From Carnobacterium iners (GTDB lineage: Bacteria; Bacillota; Bacilli; Lactobacillales; Carnobacteriaceae), in contig NZ_FXBJ01000002.1 of the NCBI RefSeq assembly GCF_900177385.1, positions 996,001 through 1,060,000 of the forward strand: a DNA stretch of 64,000 bases. Reading direction: 5' to 3'. Numbering within the stretch: the first letter of the stretch is position 1; the number at the start of each line of letters is the position of its first letter. Shown one piece after another: positions 2,871 to 10,938 of the stretch. The position numbers were made by a program, and so were the translations under genes. The notes below the pieces were generated by a model. That model saw only the letters and a list, made by a program, of their open reading frames with translations, ran no database searches and was not told the DNA's origin.

Positions 2871-2927
2871 TAAGAAATAAATAAGACTGTTTGTCAATAT
2901 AAAAACAGGTTTTAAAATGAACGAAAC

Positions 2928-2972
2928 AAAGACTGTTAACACGAGACTAAATGTGTTAGCAGTCTTTTATTT
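2928..2972 (+). terminator. Rho-independent terminator after pdxS
   Basis: An inverted repeat, AAAGACTGTTAACAC (2928-2942) against GTGTTAGCAGTCTTT (2953-2967), has one G-U pair and a T-rich tail. It closes the pdxS unit. Confidence 0.8.
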
Positions 2973-3339
2973 ATTTAGAACGGTTTAGATGATAATTTAC
3001 CATTGCGTAACTAAATATAAAAATTGATTTTTAATTTTTATGCATGAAAAAATATATTCTGTTGTTTTTAAACCATATAATTATATATGTTTTAATACAT
3101 TTAAAGTCAATAGAATAGCTAGTTACCTCAATATTTTTTAAAGTTTAATCTGTTTTCAAAAAGGTTAAACAAATAAATTTGAAAAAACAACGATAGTTAA
3201 AGCTTGCTTAATTGTTTTGATAATGTTATCTTTCATTAAACTAAATTTCAAAATGTAAATTTCAAAAGAGAAAAAGCTAAACCTACATAAAAAATCCAAC
3301 TAAAAAAGAAAATAAAATGAAAAAAAGGAGGAAGGCGCG
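2973..3339. other. Promoter region of the histidine operon
   Basis: About 370 very AT-rich bases without a gene. The promoter of the his leader transcript must lie here; I could not single out one -35/-10 pair with confidence. No T-box motif (AGGGTGGNACCGCG) is visible. Confidence 0.4.
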
Positions 3340-3414
3340 ATGAAAATAAATCAAGCAAAAAATCTAAAAATCGAGAAAAATGTAATTAAGAACCATCATA
3401 ACCATCATAGGTAG
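3340..3414 (+). CDS. hisL: His operon leader peptide
   Basis: A 24-codon open frame with an ideal AGGAGG (3326-3331), 8 bases before the ATG. The peptide is MKINQAKNLK followed by IEKNVIKNHHNHHR. Four of its last six residues are histidine, encoded by CAT CAT AAC CAT CAT (3394-3408), just before AGG TAG. This is the classic layout of an amino-acid attenuation leader: a ribosome short of His-tRNA would stall on these codons. The gene lies about 180 bases ahead of hisZ, and a terminator hairpin sits in between. The peptide itself probably has no function after synthesis. Confidence 0.88.
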   Translation: MKINQAKNLKIEKNVIKNHHNHHR

Positions 3415-3547
3415 TAGAGTCTGTAACCATGAACTAACGGCTAAAAATTAGTTCATAGATGCATGCTCTGTTTAGTTTATTTTAACTAGAGCATGAATCT
3501 ATGATGGGAAGTAGTTAAACCATATAGATTTTCTATATGGTTTTTTT
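3402..3547 (+). promoter_or_regulatory. Translation-coupled his attenuator (competing RNA pairings)
   Basis: The segment 3497-3507 can pair in three mutually exclusive ways. First, CTATGATGG (3499-3507) pairs perfectly with CCATCATAG (3402-3410), which is the second His-His codon pair itself. Second, 3497-3503 pairs with 3454-3460 at the base of a hairpin that also joins 3462-3469 to 3488-3495. Third, 3497-3507 pairs with 3520-3529, with one bulged G, which captures the left arm of the terminator. A stalled ribosome on the His codons would block the first pairing and favour the third, giving readthrough. A smaller hairpin (3429-3437 with 3448-3456) may tune the switch. The fold is my own reading by eye. 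Confidence 0.75.
3517..3547 (+). terminator. Attenuator terminator upstream of hisZ
   Basis: A perfect 11-bp stem (AAACCATATAG, 3517-3527, with CTATATGGTTT, 3533-3543) has a 5-base loop and runs into a T tract ending at 3547. It lies 43 bases before hisZ, so it must be bypassed for operon expression. Confidence 0.88.
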
Positions 3548-3589
3548 GTATACTTTTTTACAAATTTATAAAAAGAAGGAGAGAGTTAC

Positions 3590-4540
3590 ATGCAGTTTAG
3601 AACAATTGCCCAAGAATTAGAAAAAACAAAAATAAAAAAAGACATCAAGAGAGGTATTGAGAATTATTTTGAAAAAACAGGTTTTTCTTTAATTGAACCT
3701 AAAACATTTCAAGATTACGATGATTTTATTAACTCAGCAGCTAATCCTGATCTAGCTAAGACGGTAAAAGTTTTAGGTGGAGATTCTAAGATATATGTTT
3801 TAAGACCAGATATTACAACAAATATTCTAAGTCAAATTTTTACTAAATGGGACGGAAAAAAGCCTCTAAAAGTTTACTACAATTCTAAAATTTATAGAAA
3901 TGAATTAAGAGGAAATGTAGCTGAAGACTATCAAATGGGAATTGAATCATTAGGAGATAACCAAATTAACGGGGATAGAGAGGTTTTTGAAATAGCACTA
4001 AATCTGATGTCAAAATTAGACAAAGACTATATTCTAGAACTTGGTTCCAGTAACTATTTAGATAGTTTTTTCAAAGAAAGAAAGCTAGCAGATGCTGATG
4101 AACTGGCTATAAAAACACTAATTAGTAGGAAAAATCGTGATGAGCTTAAGGGGAAACTGAAGTCATTAAAACTTGAAAATACAATGTTAACTAATATATT
4201 AGATATGCAAGGGAGTATGGAAAAAGTCATTACTATGGCTAAAACCTATGAAACAAATAAAGAAATGAAAAAGGCTATCCGTTCTCTTGAAAGTCTTAAC
4301 GAGTATTTTTTTGATAAAGGTGTAACGGATAATATCAAAGTTGATCTTTCTATGGTACCAGACCTTGATTATTATGATGGCATCATTTTTAAAGGCTATT
4401 GTTCAAATAAACCAACCAAAATTTTGAGCGGTGGTCGTTACGACAAGTCAACTGAAAAATATGGTTTAACGGTTTCTGCAATAGGATTCATGATTGATAT
4501 GAATATCGTTACTGAAATTAGAATGGAGGGGAAAAATTAG
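3590..4540 (+). CDS. hisZ: ATP phosphoribosyltransferase regulatory subunit HisZ
   Basis: A 316-residue HisRS-like protein without aminoacylation activity. It joins short-form HisG to form the active, histidine-sensitive ATP-phosphoribosyltransferase, the first enzyme of histidine synthesis. Class II synthetase-fold traits are visible: RPDITTNI near residue 85, VYYNSKIYRNE (motif 2-like) near 100, and LSGGRYDKSTEKYGLTVSAIGF (motif 3-like) near 280. The anticodon-binding domain of true HisRS is missing. AAGGAG precedes ATG 3590. The stop codon shares one base with the hisG start. It is the first gene after the attenuator. Confidence 0.93.
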   Translation: MQFRTIAQELEKTKIKKDIKRGIENYFEKTGFSLIEPKTFQDYDDFINSAANPDLAKTVKVLGGDSKIYVLRPDITTNILSQIFTKWDGKKPLKVYYNSKIYRNELRGNVAEDYQMGIESLGDNQINGDREVFEIALNLMSKLDKDYILELGSSNYLDSFFKERKLADADELAIKTLISRKNRDELKGKLKSLKLENTMLTNILDMQGSMEKVITMAKTYETNKEMKKAIRSLESLNEYFFDKGVTDNIKVDLSMVPDLDYYDGIIFKGYCSNKPTKILSGGRYDKSTEKYGLTVSAIGFMIDMNIVTEIRMEGKN

Positions 4541-5163
4541 TGGAGACTCTAACGATAGCGATAGCAAAAGGGCGACTTGGAAAAAAAGGATTAAAACTTT
4601 TTGAAGAAACAGAGTATGCGATTGAAATGGAAGAAGATTCTAGAAAACTAATTTTTAATAATGCTAATAAAACAATCAATTTTATCTTTGTTAAACCTTG
4701 CGACGTGGTTACTTACGTCGAAAAAGGCGTAGCGGATATGGGTATTGTAGGTAGAGACACTATTCTAGAAGAGAATAAAGATATCTACGAAGTATTGGAT
4801 CTCAAATATGGTAAGTGTAAATTTGTTGTAGCTGGTTTTGAGAATCAGGACTTAGTTAAAAAGAATGAAGTTTTAAAGATAGCGACAAAATATCCTTCCT
4901 ATGTTTATTCTATTTTTGAGGATAGAGGACAAAAGATAGAGATAATAAAATTGGGAGGAGCTATAGAATTAGCACCATTAATGGGGTTAAGCGAGGTCAT
5001 TGTCGATATAGTAGAAACTGGAACAACCTTGAAAGATAATGGATTAGTTGTTTTAGAAGAATTGGACCCAATCAGCGCTCGTCTGATTGTGAATAAAGTC
5101 AGTTATCGATTCAACTATGAGGAGATACAAAAAATAGAAAAGGTCTTAGGTGAAAGACGATGA
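4540..5163 (+). CDS. hisG: ATP phosphoribosyltransferase, short catalytic form HisG
   Basis: 207 residues, the short HisG type that needs HisZ. It condenses ATP and PRPP to phosphoribosyl-ATP. Motifs include IAIAKGRLGKKGL at the N-terminus, ADMGIVGRDTILE near 65, and the PRPP loop VDIVETGTTLKDNGL near 155. The C-terminal regulatory domain of long HisG is absent, consistent with hisZ next door. The start is GTG, overlapping the hisZ stop by one base; GGAGGGG lies just upstream. The end overlaps hisD (ATGA). Confidence 0.95.
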   Translation: METLTIAIAKGRLGKKGLKLFEETEYAIEMEEDSRKLIFNNANKTINFIFVKPCDVVTYVEKGVADMGIVGRDTILEENKDIYEVLDLKYGKCKFVVAGFENQDLVKKNEVLKIATKYPSYVYSIFEDRGQKIEIIKLGGAIELAPLMGLSEVIVDIVETGTTLKDNGLVVLEELDPISARLIVNKVSYRFNYEEIQKIEKVLGERR

Positions 5164-6446
5164 TTAAAATAATAGAGGCAAACAAAGAAAGTGAAAAAAT
5201 AGCAAAGATTTTATCTCGTAGCCAGATGGACTCGACAGAAGTGCTAGAAACAGTCAATCAAATATTGGAAGAGGTAAAAACAGATGGCGATAAGGCAGTA
5301 TTAAAATTCACCCAGTTATACGATGAAAATAAGTTGGAAAACTTAAAAGTAACTCAAGAAGAAATAGAAGCAGCTAAGCAGGCTATTGATAAGGACCTAG
5401 AAAAAGCCTTGAAAAATGCGATTAAAAACATCACTACTTTTCATAAAAAACAAGTAAAAGAAGGTTTTATGATAAATGAAAGTCCAGATGTCATGCTTGG
5501 CCAAATGGTGATGCCGATTGAGAAAGTAGGGTTATACATACCAGGCGGAACTGCTTCTTATCCTTCCACGGTAATGATGAATGCTATACCTGCAAACTTG
5601 GCGGGAGTAAAGGAAATAGTCATCACAACGCCAGCAGATAAAAATGGTAAGATAAAAGATTCTGTTTTAGTGACAGCTGATTTATTGGGAGTTGACCAAA
5701 TTTATAAAATTGGAGGGGCACAAGCTGTTGGCGCTCTTTGTTACGGCAGCGAAACGATTCCTAAAGTAGATAAAATTGTCGGACCAGGAAATATTTATGT
5801 TGCCATGGCTAAGCACAAAGTATCTGGATTAGTGGGTATTGATATGATTGCTGGACCAAGTGAAGTGCTGATTATTGCAGATGAGAAAGCAAATCCAACT
5901 TTCATTGCGGCTGATCTATTAGCTCAAGCAGAACACGATAAAAGAGCTGCGAGTATAGTGGTAACAGATTCTCATAGTCAAGCAAAGGCTATTCAAAAAG
6001 AGGTAGAAATCCAACTTCAAATGCTTGAACGGAATGAAATAGCTAGAGAAGCCCTTTCTGAATATGGTGCAATTATTCTTTGTGAAACGAAAGAACAATG
6101 CTTTGAAATAGCCAATGATTTTGCGCCAGAACATTTAGAAATATTGACTGAAAATCCATTTGAAGACTACAAAAAAATTAAAAACGCAGGCGCTATTTTT
6201 CTTGGAGAATATTCACCTGAACCTTTAGGAGATTATTATGCTGGCCCGAATCATACGCTGCCTACTTCAAAAACAGCGAGGTTTTCTTCCGCTCTTGGTG
6301 TCGATGACTTTTATAAAAAAACTTCTCTTGTTTATTATTCGAAAGAAGCACTCAGACAGGCGTCAGAAGACATTTTATTAATCGCTAATAACGAAGGATT
6401 GACAGGACATGCTAATTCTATCAAGGTGAGAATGGAGGAATCATAA
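5160..6446 (+). CDS. hisD: Histidinol dehydrogenase HisD
   Basis: A 428-residue zinc enzyme that oxidises L-histidinol to histidine with two NAD+, the last step of the pathway. Conserved stretches are VGLYIPGGTASYPSTVMMNA (about 125), KIVGPGNIYVAMAK (about 205), DMIAGPSEVLIIAD (about 230), QAEHDKRA (about 260, metal/substrate residues) and GPNHTLPTSKTARF (about 365). Length is normal. The start overlaps the hisG stop by four bases, indicating coupled translation. Confidence 0.97.
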   Translation: MIKIIEANKESEKIAKILSRSQMDSTEVLETVNQILEEVKTDGDKAVLKFTQLYDENKLENLKVTQEEIEAAKQAIDKDLEKALKNAIKNITTFHKKQVKEGFMINESPDVMLGQMVMPIEKVGLYIPGGTASYPSTVMMNAIPANLAGVKEIVITTPADKNGKIKDSVLVTADLLGVDQIYKIGGAQAVGALCYGSETIPKVDKIVGPGNIYVAMAKHKVSGLVGIDMIAGPSEVLIIADEKANPTFIAADLLAQAEHDKRAASIVVTDSHSQAKAIQKEVEIQLQMLERNEIAREALSEYGAIILCETKEQCFEIANDFAPEHLEILTENPFEDYKKIKNAGAIFLGEYSPEPLGDYYAGPNHTLPTSKTARFSSALGVDDFYKKTSLVYYSKEALRQASEDILLIANNEGLTGHANSIKVRMEES

Positions 6447-6447
6447 A

Positions 6448-7455
6448 GTGGAAAAATATGTAAGAGAAGAAATAAAAAAGTTAAACGCTTATGAAGTTCT
6501 AAATAAGGATTTTACTATTAAGTTAGATGCAAATGAAGGTGTGGAGTGGATAAAAGGTCTGAACCGTTACCCGCTAGATAAAAGCGATACATTAAGAGGA
6601 GAATTAGCAAAAAAACTGGGAAAGGACAAAGATGAAATCGTGCTTGGAAATGGTTCTAGCGAACTAATTGAACTAGCAATGAAAGCTTATTTAGAAGCAG
6701 GAAAAACGGTGGTTAGTTTTTCACCCACTTTTAGTATGTACCAGATTTTCACCATAATCCATAAAGGAAACTATGAAGAGTATCCGCTAGACGATAAAAA
6801 AAAGTTAAACATTGAAGGCTTTGTAGAATTTATTCAAGAAAAAAAAGCTAAGTTAGTTATTATTAGTAATCCAAATAATCCAACAGGTCTGTTTATTCCA
6901 AGAGAAGAAATCAAAAAAATCCTAACATCAGTAGATGCAATGGTTATTTTAGATGAAGCTTACATCGAATTTACAAATGAACCGAAAACAGATTTCACTA
7001 AAGAATTCAAAAATATGCTTGTTTTAAGAACTTTTTCTAAAGCGATGGGGTTAGCTGGAATTCGATTGGGGTACATGATTGCGGACAAAGAAAATATTGG
7101 TTATATCAATCGAGTACGCTCTCCTTATAACGTAAACGCTTTGACTCAAGAAATGGGTCTAAAAGTACTCAATGATCAAGAGATTACAAATAAAAATATT
7201 GAAATGATTAAAAAAGAAAGAGAAAAGATGAGACTCTTTTTACAAGGAAAAGACTTAAATCCTTTCCCATCAGAAGCTAATTTTTTGTTTTTCCAAGCGC
7301 CAAAAGCGGTATTTGATGCATTAGAAAACAAGGCCGTATTGATTAGGGATTTTTCAGGAAAACTTGAAGGATACTATAGACTCACTATTGGTACACCCCA
7401 AGAGAATGAAAGTGTTAGGAAGATAATAAAGGAGGTACAACATGCGACAAGCTAA
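6448..7455 (+). CDS. hisC: Histidinol-phosphate aminotransferase HisC
   Basis: A 335-residue class I/II PLP aminotransferase that converts imidazole acetol phosphate and glutamate to histidinol phosphate. The motifs ISNPNNPTG, VILDEAYIEF and the PLP lysine segment RTFSKAMGLAGIRLGY are present. The start is GTG one base after the hisD stop, with GGAGG upstream; no better ATG is in frame. The 3' end overlaps hisB by 14 bases. Position inside the his operon distinguishes it from related aromatic aminotransferases. Confidence 0.95.
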   Translation: MEKYVREEIKKLNAYEVLNKDFTIKLDANEGVEWIKGLNRYPLDKSDTLRGELAKKLGKDKDEIVLGNGSSELIELAMKAYLEAGKTVVSFSPTFSMYQIFTIIHKGNYEEYPLDDKKKLNIEGFVEFIQEKKAKLVIISNPNNPTGLFIPREEIKKILTSVDAMVILDEAYIEFTNEPKTDFTKEFKNMLVLRTFSKAMGLAGIRLGYMIADKENIGYINRVRSPYNVNALTQEMGLKVLNDQEITNKNIEMIKKEREKMRLFLQGKDLNPFPSEANFLFFQAPKAVFDALENKAVLIRDFSGKLEGYYRLTIGTPQENESVRKIIKEVQHATS

Positions 7456-8020
7456 GATTACGCGGCATACGTTAGAAACAAAGATAGATTTAATGTTAAA
7501 TCTAGAGGGGTCTAGAAAGATTTCTATCAACTCTGGAATTGGTTTCTTTGATCATATGCTAAGAGCAATGGCTTTTTATGCAAAATTCGATTTGACTGTC
7601 GAATGTGACGGAGACTTACAGGTAGATACTCATCACACCGTTGAAGATATTGGACTTTCCTTAGGAGCTGCATTTAAAGAAGCTTTGGGAGATAAAATAG
7701 GGATTGCTAGATTTGCTTCTCCAATCACACCTATGGATGAGAGTCTAGCACTTGTCGCTATCGATATTTCTAATCGACCTTTTCTAGTTGAAAATTTAAT
7801 GTTCACATCTGAAAAGATAGGAGAAATGGAAAATCAATGTTTCAAAGAGTTTTTCTATAGCTTTGCTATGTCTGCCGGACTTACTCTCCATATCGATGTG
7901 ATGAGAGGAGAAAATGACCATCACAAGATAGAAGCTGTTTTTAAAGGATTAGGAAGAGCAATGAGAGAAGCTGTGTGCATCGTTGATGATGAGGTAGTAA
8001 GCACGAAAGGCGTATTGTAA
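7442..8020 (+). CDS. hisB: Imidazoleglycerol-phosphate dehydratase HisB
   Basis: A 192-residue monofunctional dehydratase (no fused phosphatase) converting imidazole glycerol phosphate to imidazole acetol phosphate. The two manganese-binding signatures are visible: FFDHML and DTHHTVEDIGLSLG in the first repeat, and ENDHHKIEAVFKGLGRA in the second. AAGGAGG precedes the ATG, inside the end of hisC. The gene is followed by a 51-base gap to hisA, exactly where hisH is usually found in Firmicute operons; no hisH or remnant fits there. Confidence 0.96.
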   Translation: MRQAKITRHTLETKIDLMLNLEGSRKISINSGIGFFDHMLRAMAFYAKFDLTVECDGDLQVDTHHTVEDIGLSLGAAFKEALGDKIGIARFASPITPMDESLALVAIDISNRPFLVENLMFTSEKIGEMENQCFKEFFYSFAMSAGLTLHIDVMRGENDHHKIEAVFKGLGRAMREAVCIVDDEVVSTKGVL

Positions 8021-8071
8021 TAAAGTAGTTGAAATAGTTAATTAAATAAAGGGAATCAAGGAGTTGATTAA

Positions 8072-8779
8072 GTGTTTATCTATCCAGCAATTGATATCAA
8101 AGATAAATCGTGTGTCAGATTAGAGCAAGGTCTTTATGAGAAAATGACGGTATACGAAAAAGATCCTGTAAAAGTAGCAATAAGATGGGAAGATACTGGA
8201 GCTGAATTTTTGCATTTAGTAGACCTTGACGGGGCTAGAAATGGAATTCGTTTAAATGAAGAAGTTGTAAAAGAAATAATTAAAAACGTGACAATACCCA
8301 TTCAATTAGGTGGTGGAATTAGAGATTCTCAGGGAATAGAGACGCTATTAAATTTAGGCGTTTCTCAAGTGATTATAGGAACGGCTGCTCTCAAAGACCC
8401 CAAATGGATGAAAGAAGTTATTTCGCAATATGGTGACAAAATAATTGTCTCAATTGATGCTAGTAATGGATTTATAGCCACTGATGGATGGGAACAAGTT
8501 TCTGATGTAAAAGCGATAGACTATATAAAAGAACTTGAATCCTATGGTTTGAATCGAATAGTTTATACAGATATTGTAAAAGACGGGATGCTAAGTGGTC
8601 CTAATTTTGAAATATATGGAGAGTTAATTGGAAAAACCTCAATAGAAGTGATTGCTTCAGGAGGAGTTACTACGTTAGAAGATGTTAAAAGATTAAAGTC
8701 AATGGGACTTTATGGAGCAATTATTGGAAAAGTCTTATATGATGGAAAATTAGACTTACAGGAGGTTTTAACATGTTAA
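8072..8779 (+). CDS. hisA: ProFAR isomerase HisA
   Basis: A 235-residue TIM barrel that isomerises the phosphoribosylformimino intermediate (ProFAR to PRFAR). The catalytic aspartates are in [13 protein letters not shown] (residue 8) and [15 protein letters not shown] (about 129). Phosphate-binding glycine loops are QLGGGIRD and [11 protein letters not shown]. The start is GTG with AAGGAG upstream. The end overlaps hisF by 7 bases. It follows the short gap where hisH would be expected. Confidence 0.95.
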
Positions 8780-9528
8780 TAAGAGTGATTCCTTGTTTAG
8801 ACGTTAGGGATGGTAGAGTAGTAAAGGGTAAACAGTTCGATCAGATTGTGGATGTAGACGATCCTGAAGTTTTAGCAGAATATTATTCAAAAGCAGGTGC
8901 TGACGAGCTCGTTTTTTATGATATCACAGCTACTAATGAAAAAAGAAATGTATCGCTAGATTTTATTGAAAAAGTAGTAGAGAAAATAACGATTCCTCTT
9001 TGCGTAGGCGGAGGAGTCAGTAACTTAGCAGACTTTACAAACATTATGGATAAAGGCGCAAATAAAGTTTCCATTAATTCTGGAGCGGTGAAAACGCCTG
9101 AATTAATTAAAGAAGCTTCAGAAAAATTTAGCTCTAAAGCAGTTGTTTTAGGAATGGATATAAAAAAAATAGGGGAAGATAAATGGCGAATATTTACAAA
9201 TGGTGCGAGAATAGATACGGGTCTTGATGCAGTAGAATGGGCGATAGAAGCCGTGAAACTTGGAGCTGGAGAATTAGTGGTGAATAGCATTGATGCAGAT
9301 GGGATGAAAGAAGGATACGATATTGAACTATTAAATAAATTAGCGTCTGCGGTATCTGTTCCGGTTATTGCATCAGGTGGTGCTGGTAAGTTAGAAGACT
9401 TTGTTGAGGCAGCTACAAAAGGTAAGGCTAGAGGTGTTTTAGCAGCGAGTGTGTTTCACTACAAAGAAATCGAAATTGGGGACTTGAAACAATACATGAA
9501 ATCAAAGGGATTAGAGGTGAGTTTATAA
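8773..9528 (+). CDS. hisF: Imidazole glycerol phosphate synthase cyclase subunit HisF
   Basis: A 251-residue TIM barrel closing the imidazole ring and releasing AICAR. Catalytic Asp11 lies in [14 protein letters not shown] and the second aspartate in [11 protein letters not shown]. Phosphate loops CVGGGVS and [12 protein letters not shown] are intact. HisF normally takes ammonia tunnelled from the glutaminase HisH; no hisH is in this operon. HisF alone can work with free ammonium at high concentration, so a HisH elsewhere or ammonia dependence must be assumed. Confidence 0.95.
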
Positions 9529-10125
9529 ATGGAAATAAAGTATGATGCAAACGGACTAGTGCCTGCAATAGCTCAAGATATCGCTACGGGAGAAGTTTTG
9601 ATGTTAGCGTATATGAATGAAGAAACGGTTAAGTTAACATTAGAAACAAATATAGCACACTATTATTCTCGCTCAAGAAAAGAGATATGGAAAAAAGGAG
9701 CGACCTCTGGAAATAGTCAAGAAGTAAAGGGCTTTTATTACGATTGTGATGGCGATACGATTCTTATAAAAGTTAGTCAAACGGGTGTAGCATGTCACAC
9801 GGGAACATACTCTTGTTTCACAAATGAGTTGAAAAGTTCAACGGCCAATAAGAATACGATTGGAGATTTATATAAAGTTGTACTAGATAGAAAACTAAAT
9901 CCAGTTGAAGGATCTTATACAGCTTATTTATTCGATGAAGGAGTAGACAAGATTCTCAAAAAAGTGGGCGAAGAATCTGCAGAAGTTATTATAGGCGCAA
10001 AAAATAATAAAGAAGAATTAGTCTATGAAGCGAGTGATTTGGTTTATCACCTACTCGTTTTACTTGTCAATGAAGGGGTTCCACTGGGGAGTCTCTACGA
10101 GGAATTAGCTAAGCGAATGAAATAA
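9529..10125 (+). CDS. hisIE: Bifunctional PRA-CH cyclohydrolase / PRA-PH pyrophosphohydrolase HisIE
   Basis: A 198-residue fusion. The N-terminal HisI domain (about 1-105) has [28 protein letters not shown] and the zinc cysteines of [12 protein letters not shown]. The C-terminal HisE domain (about 110-198) has [15 protein letters not shown] and [11 protein letters not shown]. It carries out steps two and three of the pathway. The ATG begins right after the hisF stop, so translation is likely coupled. Confidence 0.95.
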
Positions 10126-10137
10126 GGAGGAGCTAAC

Positions 10138-10938
10138 TTGTTATACACAGATCAGCACGTCCATACTTCTTATTCTCCAGATAGTGAAGCGAAGATAGCA
10201 GACTACTTAATTAAAGCAAAAAAACTTGGTTTAGACTATGTTATTTTCACTGATCATGCAGATATGGGTGCAATAGAAGAAGCTTTCCAAAAGCAAATAG
10301 ACTATCAAGAGTACTTCAAAGTAATGAAGCGCTATGAAGAACAATACGAAATTGAGATAAAAGTAGGAATAGAAATAGGATACGAACTTAATTATAAAAA
10401 TCAAATCAATGAGTTATTAAATGAGTATCCTTTTGATTTTGTTATAGGTTCAATTCATTATGGAGATGGAAAAGACCTTTATTTAGGCGATTTCTATCAA
10501 GGGAAGTCACAATACGAATCCTACATGAGGTACTTTGAACTCATGTTAGAAATGGTAGAGAATTTTGCCAACTTTGATGTTATAGGACACTTAGATTACA
10601 TCGTTCGCTATGCCCCTTTTGCTGTTAAGGATTATGAGTATAAAGTATACAAAGAAATAATAGACTTAATCTTAAAAACAGTCATTAAAAAAGGGAAAGG
10701 AATTGAATTAAACACATCTGGTTTACGAGGTCCTTTAAAAACAATCTTGCCAAAAGAAGAAGTACTAATTCGGTATAAAGAATTGGGTGGTAAGATTATA
10801 ACGCTGGGCTCTGATGCTCATTTAGTAAAAGAGTATTATGCAGGAATGTCGAATGAAATAAACCATCTAGAGAGAGTGGGTTTTAGCGAACTTTCTTCTT
10901 TTAGCAAACGAAAAGTTAGACAGCATACAATTAGTTAA
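10138..10938 (+). CDS. hisK: Histidinol-phosphatase, PHP family (HisK/HisJ type)
   Basis: A 266-residue PHP-domain phosphatase removing phosphate from histidinol phosphate. The metal-binding motifs are DQHVHTSYSPDS (HxH), VIFTDHAD, VIGSIHYGDG, VIGHLDYIVRY and TLGSDAH. The start is TTG with GGAGGAG 7 bases upstream; no ATG is nearby. It closes the operon and replaces the HAD-type phosphatase of enterobacteria. A bidirectional terminator follows. Confidence 0.92.
   Translation: MLYTDQHVHTSYSPDSEAKIADYLIKAKKLGLDYVIFTDHADMGAIEEAFQKQIDYQEYFKVMKRYEEQYEIEIKVGIEIGYELNYKNQINELLNEYPFDFVIGSIHYGDGKDLYLGDFYQGKSQYESYMRYFELMLEMVENFANFDVIGHLDYIVRYAPFAVKDYEYKVYKEIIDLILKTVIKKGKGIELNTSGLRGPLKTILPKEEVLIRYKELGGKIITLGSDAHLVKEYYAGMSNEINHLERVGFSELSSFSKRKVRQHTIS

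Follow-up and report, generated by a model that had tools for sequence, protein, structure and literature searches.

A predicted histidine leader-peptide attenuator ahead of the his operon of Carnobacterium iners

The his operon of Carnobacterium iners is very probably controlled by transcription attenuation through ribosome stalling, as in the his and trp operons of enterobacteria. This reading comes from the sequence of a 64,000-nucleotide stretch of DNA, the whole of which we call the window (G000:C2:996001-1060000; G000, the genome it comes from, has three contigs and 2.57 Mb), and from comparison with related his operons. The leader, the RNA helices behind it, and the conservation of both with compensatory changes are observed. 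Because leader and helices recur in other genomes with paired changes, ribosome-stall attenuation, which an earlier note on this DNA had proposed, appears to be well supported, and strongly so by the comparative evidence.

Leader frame and alternative helices ahead of hisZ

The leader frame lies at 3340-3414 on the + strand. It has 24 codons (MKINQAKNLKIEKNVIKNHHNHHR), and its C-terminal end is NHHNHHR. The four histidine codons (3394-3399 and 3403-3408) are all CAT. A Shine-Dalgarno sequence, AGGAGG, can be read at 3326-3331 (+), 8 nt before the ATG at 3340, and the TAG stop (3412-3414) is directly followed by a second TAG. Neither strand of the 64 kb has another frame of 6-45 codons with a Shine-Dalgarno match of at least 5 and at least three histidines per six codons, and no comparable frame arose in 3,000 dinucleotide shuffles of 2871-3589, which bears out the earlier note's description of a His-rich leader with a strong ribosome site. 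Judged by its sequence, this is a short frame with a ribosome site and several codons for the amino acid that it would regulate. A weak promoter-like pair may lie upstream (TTGCTT-17-TATCTT at 3204..3232, +, with TG ahead of the second hexamer). The pair is absent from the output of a consensus scan, and it sits within a block (3196-3325) that is 89% identical, with 17 gap columns, to the close relative G004, which is classed in the same genus.

The leader stands ahead of its cognate biosynthetic operon. On the + strand, this consists of hisZ (3590..4540; TIGR00443, 2.5e-57, under its curated cut-off), a short-form hisG (4540..5163; TIGR00070), hisD (5160..6446; TIGR00069), hisC (6448..7455; TIGR01141), the dehydratase hisB (7442..8020; NF002111), hisA (8072..8779; TIGR00007), hisF (8773..9528; TIGR00735), hisIE (9529..10125; NF002747), and a histidinol phosphatase of the hisK/hisJ type (10138..10938; TIGR01856). 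The gene order hisZ-G-D-C-B-A-F-IE-K is as the earlier note had given it, with one amendment: hisH is missing from the operon, including the hisB-hisA gap (8020-8072), and lies elsewhere in the genome.

From the histidine codons onwards, we distinguish six RNA segments on the + strand, named A-F as in enterobacterial his leaders. Segment A (3402-3410), at the end of the histidine stretch, is perfectly complementary to 3499-3507 in segment D, so the 9-bp pairing of the histidine codons noticed earlier is real. Taken alone, this pairing is only moderately unlikely by chance, as a 9-nt complement to the histidine stretch was present in 62 of 5,000 shuffles of 3415-3550 (about 1%). Helix analysis and folding pair segment B (3415-3437), whose outer 5' arm comes directly behind the leader stop, with segment C (3448-3470) in a 19-bp hairpin (3415-3470). 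In helix analysis, segment C can also pair with D, as 3453-3469 and 3488-3504 form a 16-bp hairpin (3453-3504). Segment D (3488-3507) is contested by A, C, and E (duplex and helix analysis, and folding). Segment E (3517-3531) is the left arm and loop of an intrinsic terminator, and segment F (3532-3547) is its right arm and U run. The terminator (3517-3543; 12 bp and the U run) is visible in the sequence and was recovered independently by a terminator scan. As the earlier note had also seen, D can capture the terminator's left arm: 3495-3507 and 3520-3531 form an antiterminator of 12 bp with one bulged G and a duplex energy of -11.7 kcal/mol. This strength was equalled in 3 of 2,000 shuffles for the window, and in 5 and 62 of 2,000 for the leaders of G401 and G423 (see below).

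Several of these helices exclude each other: C:D cannot form alongside full B:C, D:E cannot form alongside either C:D or A:D, and E:F cannot form alongside D:E. Behind the leader frame, then, are an intrinsic terminator and a mutually exclusive antiterminator. The competition for one segment that the earlier note described is real but incomplete, since the rival hairpins B:C and C:D were missed. Their rivalry seems to be the core of the arrangement, as it would determine D's availability for blocking the terminator.

The proposed switch, for which we infer the co-transcriptional order, the ribosome footprints, and the response to histidine, would work as follows. The leader peptide would be translated while the leader RNA is being transcribed. 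If charged tRNA-His is scarce, the ribosome would halt on the histidine codons, covering A and leaving B exposed. B:C would then form and hold C off D, and D would be free to pair with E, so that RNA polymerase would continue into hisZGDCBAF-IE-K. If histidine is ample, a ribosome at the stop codon would mask the outer arm of B, and C:D would form; once the ribosome departs, A would pair with D. With D occupied by C or by A, E:F would form and transcription would terminate ahead of hisZ. A ribosome's footprint extends about 15 nt from the P-site, and B, which begins directly after the leader stop in the window, thus starts inside it.

In the folding model, with the transcript ending at 3475-3490, the outer part of B:C was formed at 0.96-0.97 if the ribosome was stalled at His19/His20 (RNA masked to 3407-3410) and at 0.00 if the ribosome was at the stop. 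We also estimated energy barriers, roughly, with a path method at 37 C and an assumed prefactor. In the stalled state, these were 10.7 kcal/mol for B:C to C:D, 3.2 for the formation of D:E, and 9.2 for D:E to E:F; in the free RNA, they were 3.6 for the formation of A:D and 12.7 for A:D to D:E. By these estimates, a stalled leader would tend towards D:E, with read-through, and a free one towards A:D, with termination. Equilibrium folding as the sole account of antitermination fails, as the full-length leader stalled at His19 prefers the terminator (E:F about 0.94, C:D about 0.93). Because equilibrium favors the terminator even in the stalled state, antitermination would have to rest on co-transcriptional trapping, which the barrier estimates, rough as they are, suggest can occur. 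With the ribosome held at the stop, the outcome was mixed: D:E reached 0.79 for a transcript ending at 3531, which does not yet include F. The attenuator model is timing-dependent, like attenuation models generally.

Conservation and distribution of the leader

The leader frame and its histidine codons are conserved in a close relative. In G004, the Shine-Dalgarno sequence, the frame, and all four histidine codons are retained, and 8 of the 72 coding bases are changed (4 synonymous and 4 nonsynonymous). The third base of Asn21 is U rather than C, which turns one A:D pair from C-G to U-G. Carnobacterium sp. isolate HKST-UBA02 (L009), whose HisG is 92% identical to the window's, has the same leader DNA as G004; L002 and L009 are identical in sequence and were counted as one relative. 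From the Shine-Dalgarno sequence to the U run (3326-3549), the window and G004 are 92% identical without gaps, versus 64% with 38 gap columns in the spacer at 2871-3195. Conservation of this kind argues against the leader being a decaying passenger of a transferred operon that has lost its regulation. The operon does look foreign, it has no hisH, and its leader stops one codon earlier than in G004, but the helices are intact in both genomes, and we consider decay improbable.

A more distant comparison is with G423, from a different family of Bacilli, whose HisZ and HisG are 40% and 59% identical to the window's. Its leader (MIANNFVQVYFQFHHHHRFKGL, ending in ...QFHHHHRFKGL) is 154 nt upstream of hisZ. 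All five helices are retained, and 66 of the 68 listed pairs form; the exceptions are the outermost and innermost pairs of B:C, and the innermost falls at an alignment gap. Five pairs are changed on both sides: 3418-3467 in B:C (AU to GC), 3464-3493 and 3467-3490 in C:D (UA to AU and UA to CG), 3496-3530 in D:E (AU to UA), and 3519-3541 in E:F (AU to GC). Covariation of the pairings in related genomes, which the earlier note had named as a check, is thus present. At position 3467, the change from U to C is matched by changes in both alternative partners, 3418 (A to G) and 3490 (A to G). Across the three states, 98.9-100% of cells were paired, versus 20-55% if partners were slid by 1-3 columns. 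A column-shuffle control, which is weak with three sequences, reached the real value in 59, 49, and 19 of 500 shuffles. The alternative helices are kept with compensatory changes, clearly so against the slid controls and weakly so against the shuffles.

G401 (HisZ 32% and HisG 53% identical) has a leader with HHH (MPNTQVKFYIHHHMTRV) 123 nt upstream of hisZ. Although G401 was left out of the covariance model, the model recovers this region (E 3.1e-6; 52 sources searched). The G401 leader forms B:C, C:D, D:E, and E:F; A:D is weak (-4.8 kcal/mol). The pairing of the histidine codons with D, which is retained in G004 and G423, is not a universal core of the attenuator. In both G423 and G401, the last part of the leader frame shares sequence with the outer arm of B, which a ribosome at the stop codon would mask.

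Only three independent lineages of the leader were found. Their peptides have little in common except the histidine run (HHNHH, HHHH, and HHH), and all precede hisZ. This pattern is hard to square with the same RNA elements responding mainly to something other than His-tRNA, be it a metal or regulator bound by the RNA or the peptide, or translation slowing in general. Histidine-rich peptides could bind metal ions, which makes a metal conceivable as the effector, and we still give this class of explanation little credence. All four leaders (window, G004, G423, and G401) have the U-run terminator hairpin, and the start of hisZ is some 45 nt past the terminator, outside the named helices. Both observations speak for termination and against a translational control that hides the start of hisZ; such control does exist among some attenuators (excerpts of PMC9413887), and we judge it very unlikely in this operon. 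The reading that remains preferred is a stalled ribosome that acts through termination.

The leader is rare. HisG is present in 5 of the 18 genomes of the window's family: G000 and G004, and also G002, G008, and G011, which have a different his operon. HisZ was matched at E up to 1e-15 in 90 of 395 Lactobacillales genomes, and just two of these 90, the window's and G004, have the leader. Of the other 88, 45 have a T-box-like motif upstream (with two mismatches allowed; in 10 of them every such motif is more than 1 kb away, and that of L205 seems spurious), 40 have neither leader nor T-box-like motif (L201 was searched over 193 nt only), and three lack a hisZ piece, one of which, L206, has an Rfam T-box. 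Rfam T-boxes were found in 9 of the 20 Lactobacillales his loci that were submitted. Upstream of hisZ, many of the loci drawn from the wider class (L128-L155) were covered over 104 to about 510 nt only, and a leader farther away would be missed there.

A search of related his operons for the same leader, another check named earlier, found it in 5 of 60 loci, which represent four operons (the window's, twice, and those of G004, G423, and G401). In 20 hand-picked Bacilli loci with longer upstream sequences (some of them re-taken), only G401 had a leader. When the covariance model was run with stricter filters against 358 Bacilli genomes, which may or may not include G401, the only strong matches were G000 and G423. 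Nine weaker matches (E 4.6e-4 to 0.086) were taken as chance; the best of them, G717, has hisG on another contig. We dismissed two candidates by eye: an Arg-rich frame 250 nt before hisG, with no hisZ match (L030), and a frame 471 nt before hisZ with scattered histidines (L174). The His-rich frames on the + strand of L055, L059, L066, L080, and L083 all fell outside our terms for Shine-Dalgarno sequence, length, or distance.

Other known types of control were tested at this operon. A His T-box, in which uncharged tRNA-His binds the leader RNA directly, would be in line with what usually controls Lactobacillales his genes at the RNA level (excerpts of PMC9413887) and with the 16 T-box matches in G000 (12 above cut-off). 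But the window has no match to the T-box family (RF00230) at the gathering score, and a motif search with two mismatches allowed found no T-box within 1.5 kb upstream of hisZ, either in the window or in G004. T-box control of this operon is refuted at the sensitivity used, and its probability seems close to nil. At the gathering score, none of 4,227 Rfam families matched the window or the G423 and G401 loci. These include RF00514, and we rejected the proteobacterial His_leader model, which had no match at the operon. Membership in a HisR regulon was rejected because G000 has no member of the TrpR/HisR family (PF01371); none was found in G004 or G002 either, and G423 and G401 have one each. The earlier remark that T-boxes control most Firmicute his operons is a better description of Lactobacillales; across Firmicutes, the commonest control of his genes is the HisR repressor, as the excerpts of PMC9413887 describe.

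Origin of the operon and a native remnant behind a T-box

The earlier note called this a Lactobacillales-type his operon, which was wrong. HisZ is 22-30% identical to its counterparts in the 88 other matched Lactobacillales genomes, versus 40% to G423. In a HisG tree with 118 rows, the four leader-bearing operons group together (support 100/79, just below the starred level), separate both from native Carnobacteriaceae HisG and from the main Lactobacillales clade, which comprises 24 of the 28 Lactobacillales rows. The remaining four Lactobacillales rows are in a wider group of 22 rows (98/92) that includes the leader-bearing group. HisG is also present, at 43-45% identity, in four further genomes from the family of G423, where the roughly 320 nt examined upstream contain no leader; given these relatives with divergent HisG and without the leader, the operon looks mobile in that family too. 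The operon of G423 is ordered Z-G-D-C-B-H-A-F-IE (names by eye, hisH by family match) and so includes hisH; G004 gave no hisH match (genome 92% complete). From trees and gene content together, it is probable that horizontal transfer brought in the window's operon along with its attenuator, and that they replaced a native his operon.

A Clostridial origin was considered after the first scan, in which the kept matches after L009 were mostly Lachnospiraceae (HisG 51-57%), and was dropped. Only L009 had a convincing leader among the 80 loci of that scan, and the 23 of these loci that were included in the HisG tree formed a group of their own. Among plasmid records, 12 had a HisZ match, all below 60% (29.3% was the best among those listed), and none matched the leader DNA; viral contigs gave no match.

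Upstream of the his leader, pdxS lies at 2004-2870 of the window and is 99% identical in G004. The pdxS of G002 is 67% identical, and a glutaminase-like match adjoins it; G001 and G003 have no match. Possibly pdxS is part of the same acquired stretch as the his operon.

The only hisH of G000 above the family cut-off is at C2:2150056-2150613. Around it, on the minus strand, is a decayed native his operon (L311:2944-6686; G000:C2:2147943-2151685), which stands behind a probable His T-box and matches the intact operon of the congener G002 (L312, L094). Its hisH, hisF, and hisIE are full length and 92-94% identical to those of G002, hisC and hisB are fragments, and hisA is broken; hisZ, hisG, and hisD had no match within 9 kb. 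The T-box (106.2 bits) is ahead of the hisC fragment. By the rule for reading T-box specifiers, the probable specifier is CAC, a histidine codon, because this T-box region (GAACACATCTTTGAG) resembles five Lactobacillales T-boxes that lie 75-109 nt upstream of hisZ (L102, L107, L113, L123, and L192), all of which read ACACA-T/C-C...GAG. Among the nine T-box loci compared, L288 (before hisS of G004) and L195 are off-pattern and L209 is a loose fit.

In relatives, probable His T-boxes are also found near, not immediately ahead of, the native his operon (L094:3975-4219, L095:3923-4166, and L096:2082-2326). In G002, G008, and G011, the T-box is 1.4-1.6 kb upstream of hisZ, with a hisK-like frame (by eye) on the opposite strand in between; in G002, a broken transporter-like frame follows the T-box. 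Both congeners also have a Na+ riboswitch aptamer (RF03071) at these loci (L311:782-828 and L312:1823-1869).

Since the only hisH above the family cut-off sits behind a probable T-box and the acquired operon has none, one histidine pathway may be read by two different RNA sensors. On balance, we lean towards a half-finished operon replacement that includes the sensor: an attenuator-bearing his operon would have entered a Carnobacterium lineage, and the native one would have decayed behind its His-type T-box, leaving hisH, hisF, and hisIE intact. The pathway would then be under two unrelated tRNA readers, a stalled ribosome for the nine acquired genes and a T-box for HisH. This suggests one route of sensor change, namely the arrival of a complete operon together with its RNA switch. 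With the attenuator and the probable His T-box in the same genome, the choice between T-box and leader peptide could be tested in one cell and one pathway.

Comparison with known systems

In the enterobacterial his layout, the histidine stretch pairs with B; in the window, it pairs with D and not B, and there is no Rfam match. The enterobacterial attenuator (RF00514) is like the window in its stall at histidine codons, its chain of alternative hairpins, and its terminator (excerpts of PMC9413887 and general knowledge). The His T-box leaders of Lactobacillales (RF00230) share the signal and the target genes with the window's leader. They differ from it in binding tRNA directly and having no leader peptide, and they are absent at the window's operon. 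Leader-peptide attenuation in a Firmicute is also described for the leucine-rich peptide of the Staphylococcus aureus ilv-leu operon (excerpts of PMC5794164), which has genetic support and concerns a different amino acid and operon.

Among Firmicutes, the 2022 study PMC9413887 predicted His attenuators in 17 genomes, from the Bacillus cereus group, Peptostreptococcaceae/Lutispora, and Erysipelotrichales. By their description, these are like the window in having a His-rich leader peptide and a terminator and antiterminator before his operons, and they too were predicted from sequence. Lactobacillales are absent from Table 3 of that study, and its excerpts call Carnobacterium maltaromaticum a histidine auxotroph. 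A 2010 study (PMC2965389) suggested that, in bacilli, a histidine leader peptide precedes hisZ and a hisS paralogue. By its description, though not by its anatomy, this too is a His-codon leader ahead of a Firmicute hisZ; in the excerpts of that study, the mention of Lactobacillales concerns a hisS T-box only. In the open-licence literature, as judged by titles and the openings of abstracts, we found no report that describes a His leader peptide from Carnobacterium or any other member of Lactobacillales. On the excerpts of PMC9413887 and PMC2965389, then, His leader-peptide attenuators had already been predicted before Firmicute his genes, and what appears to be new is the case in Lactobacillales. 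It would extend His leader-peptide attenuation to an order in which another kind of histidine sensor is the usual one.
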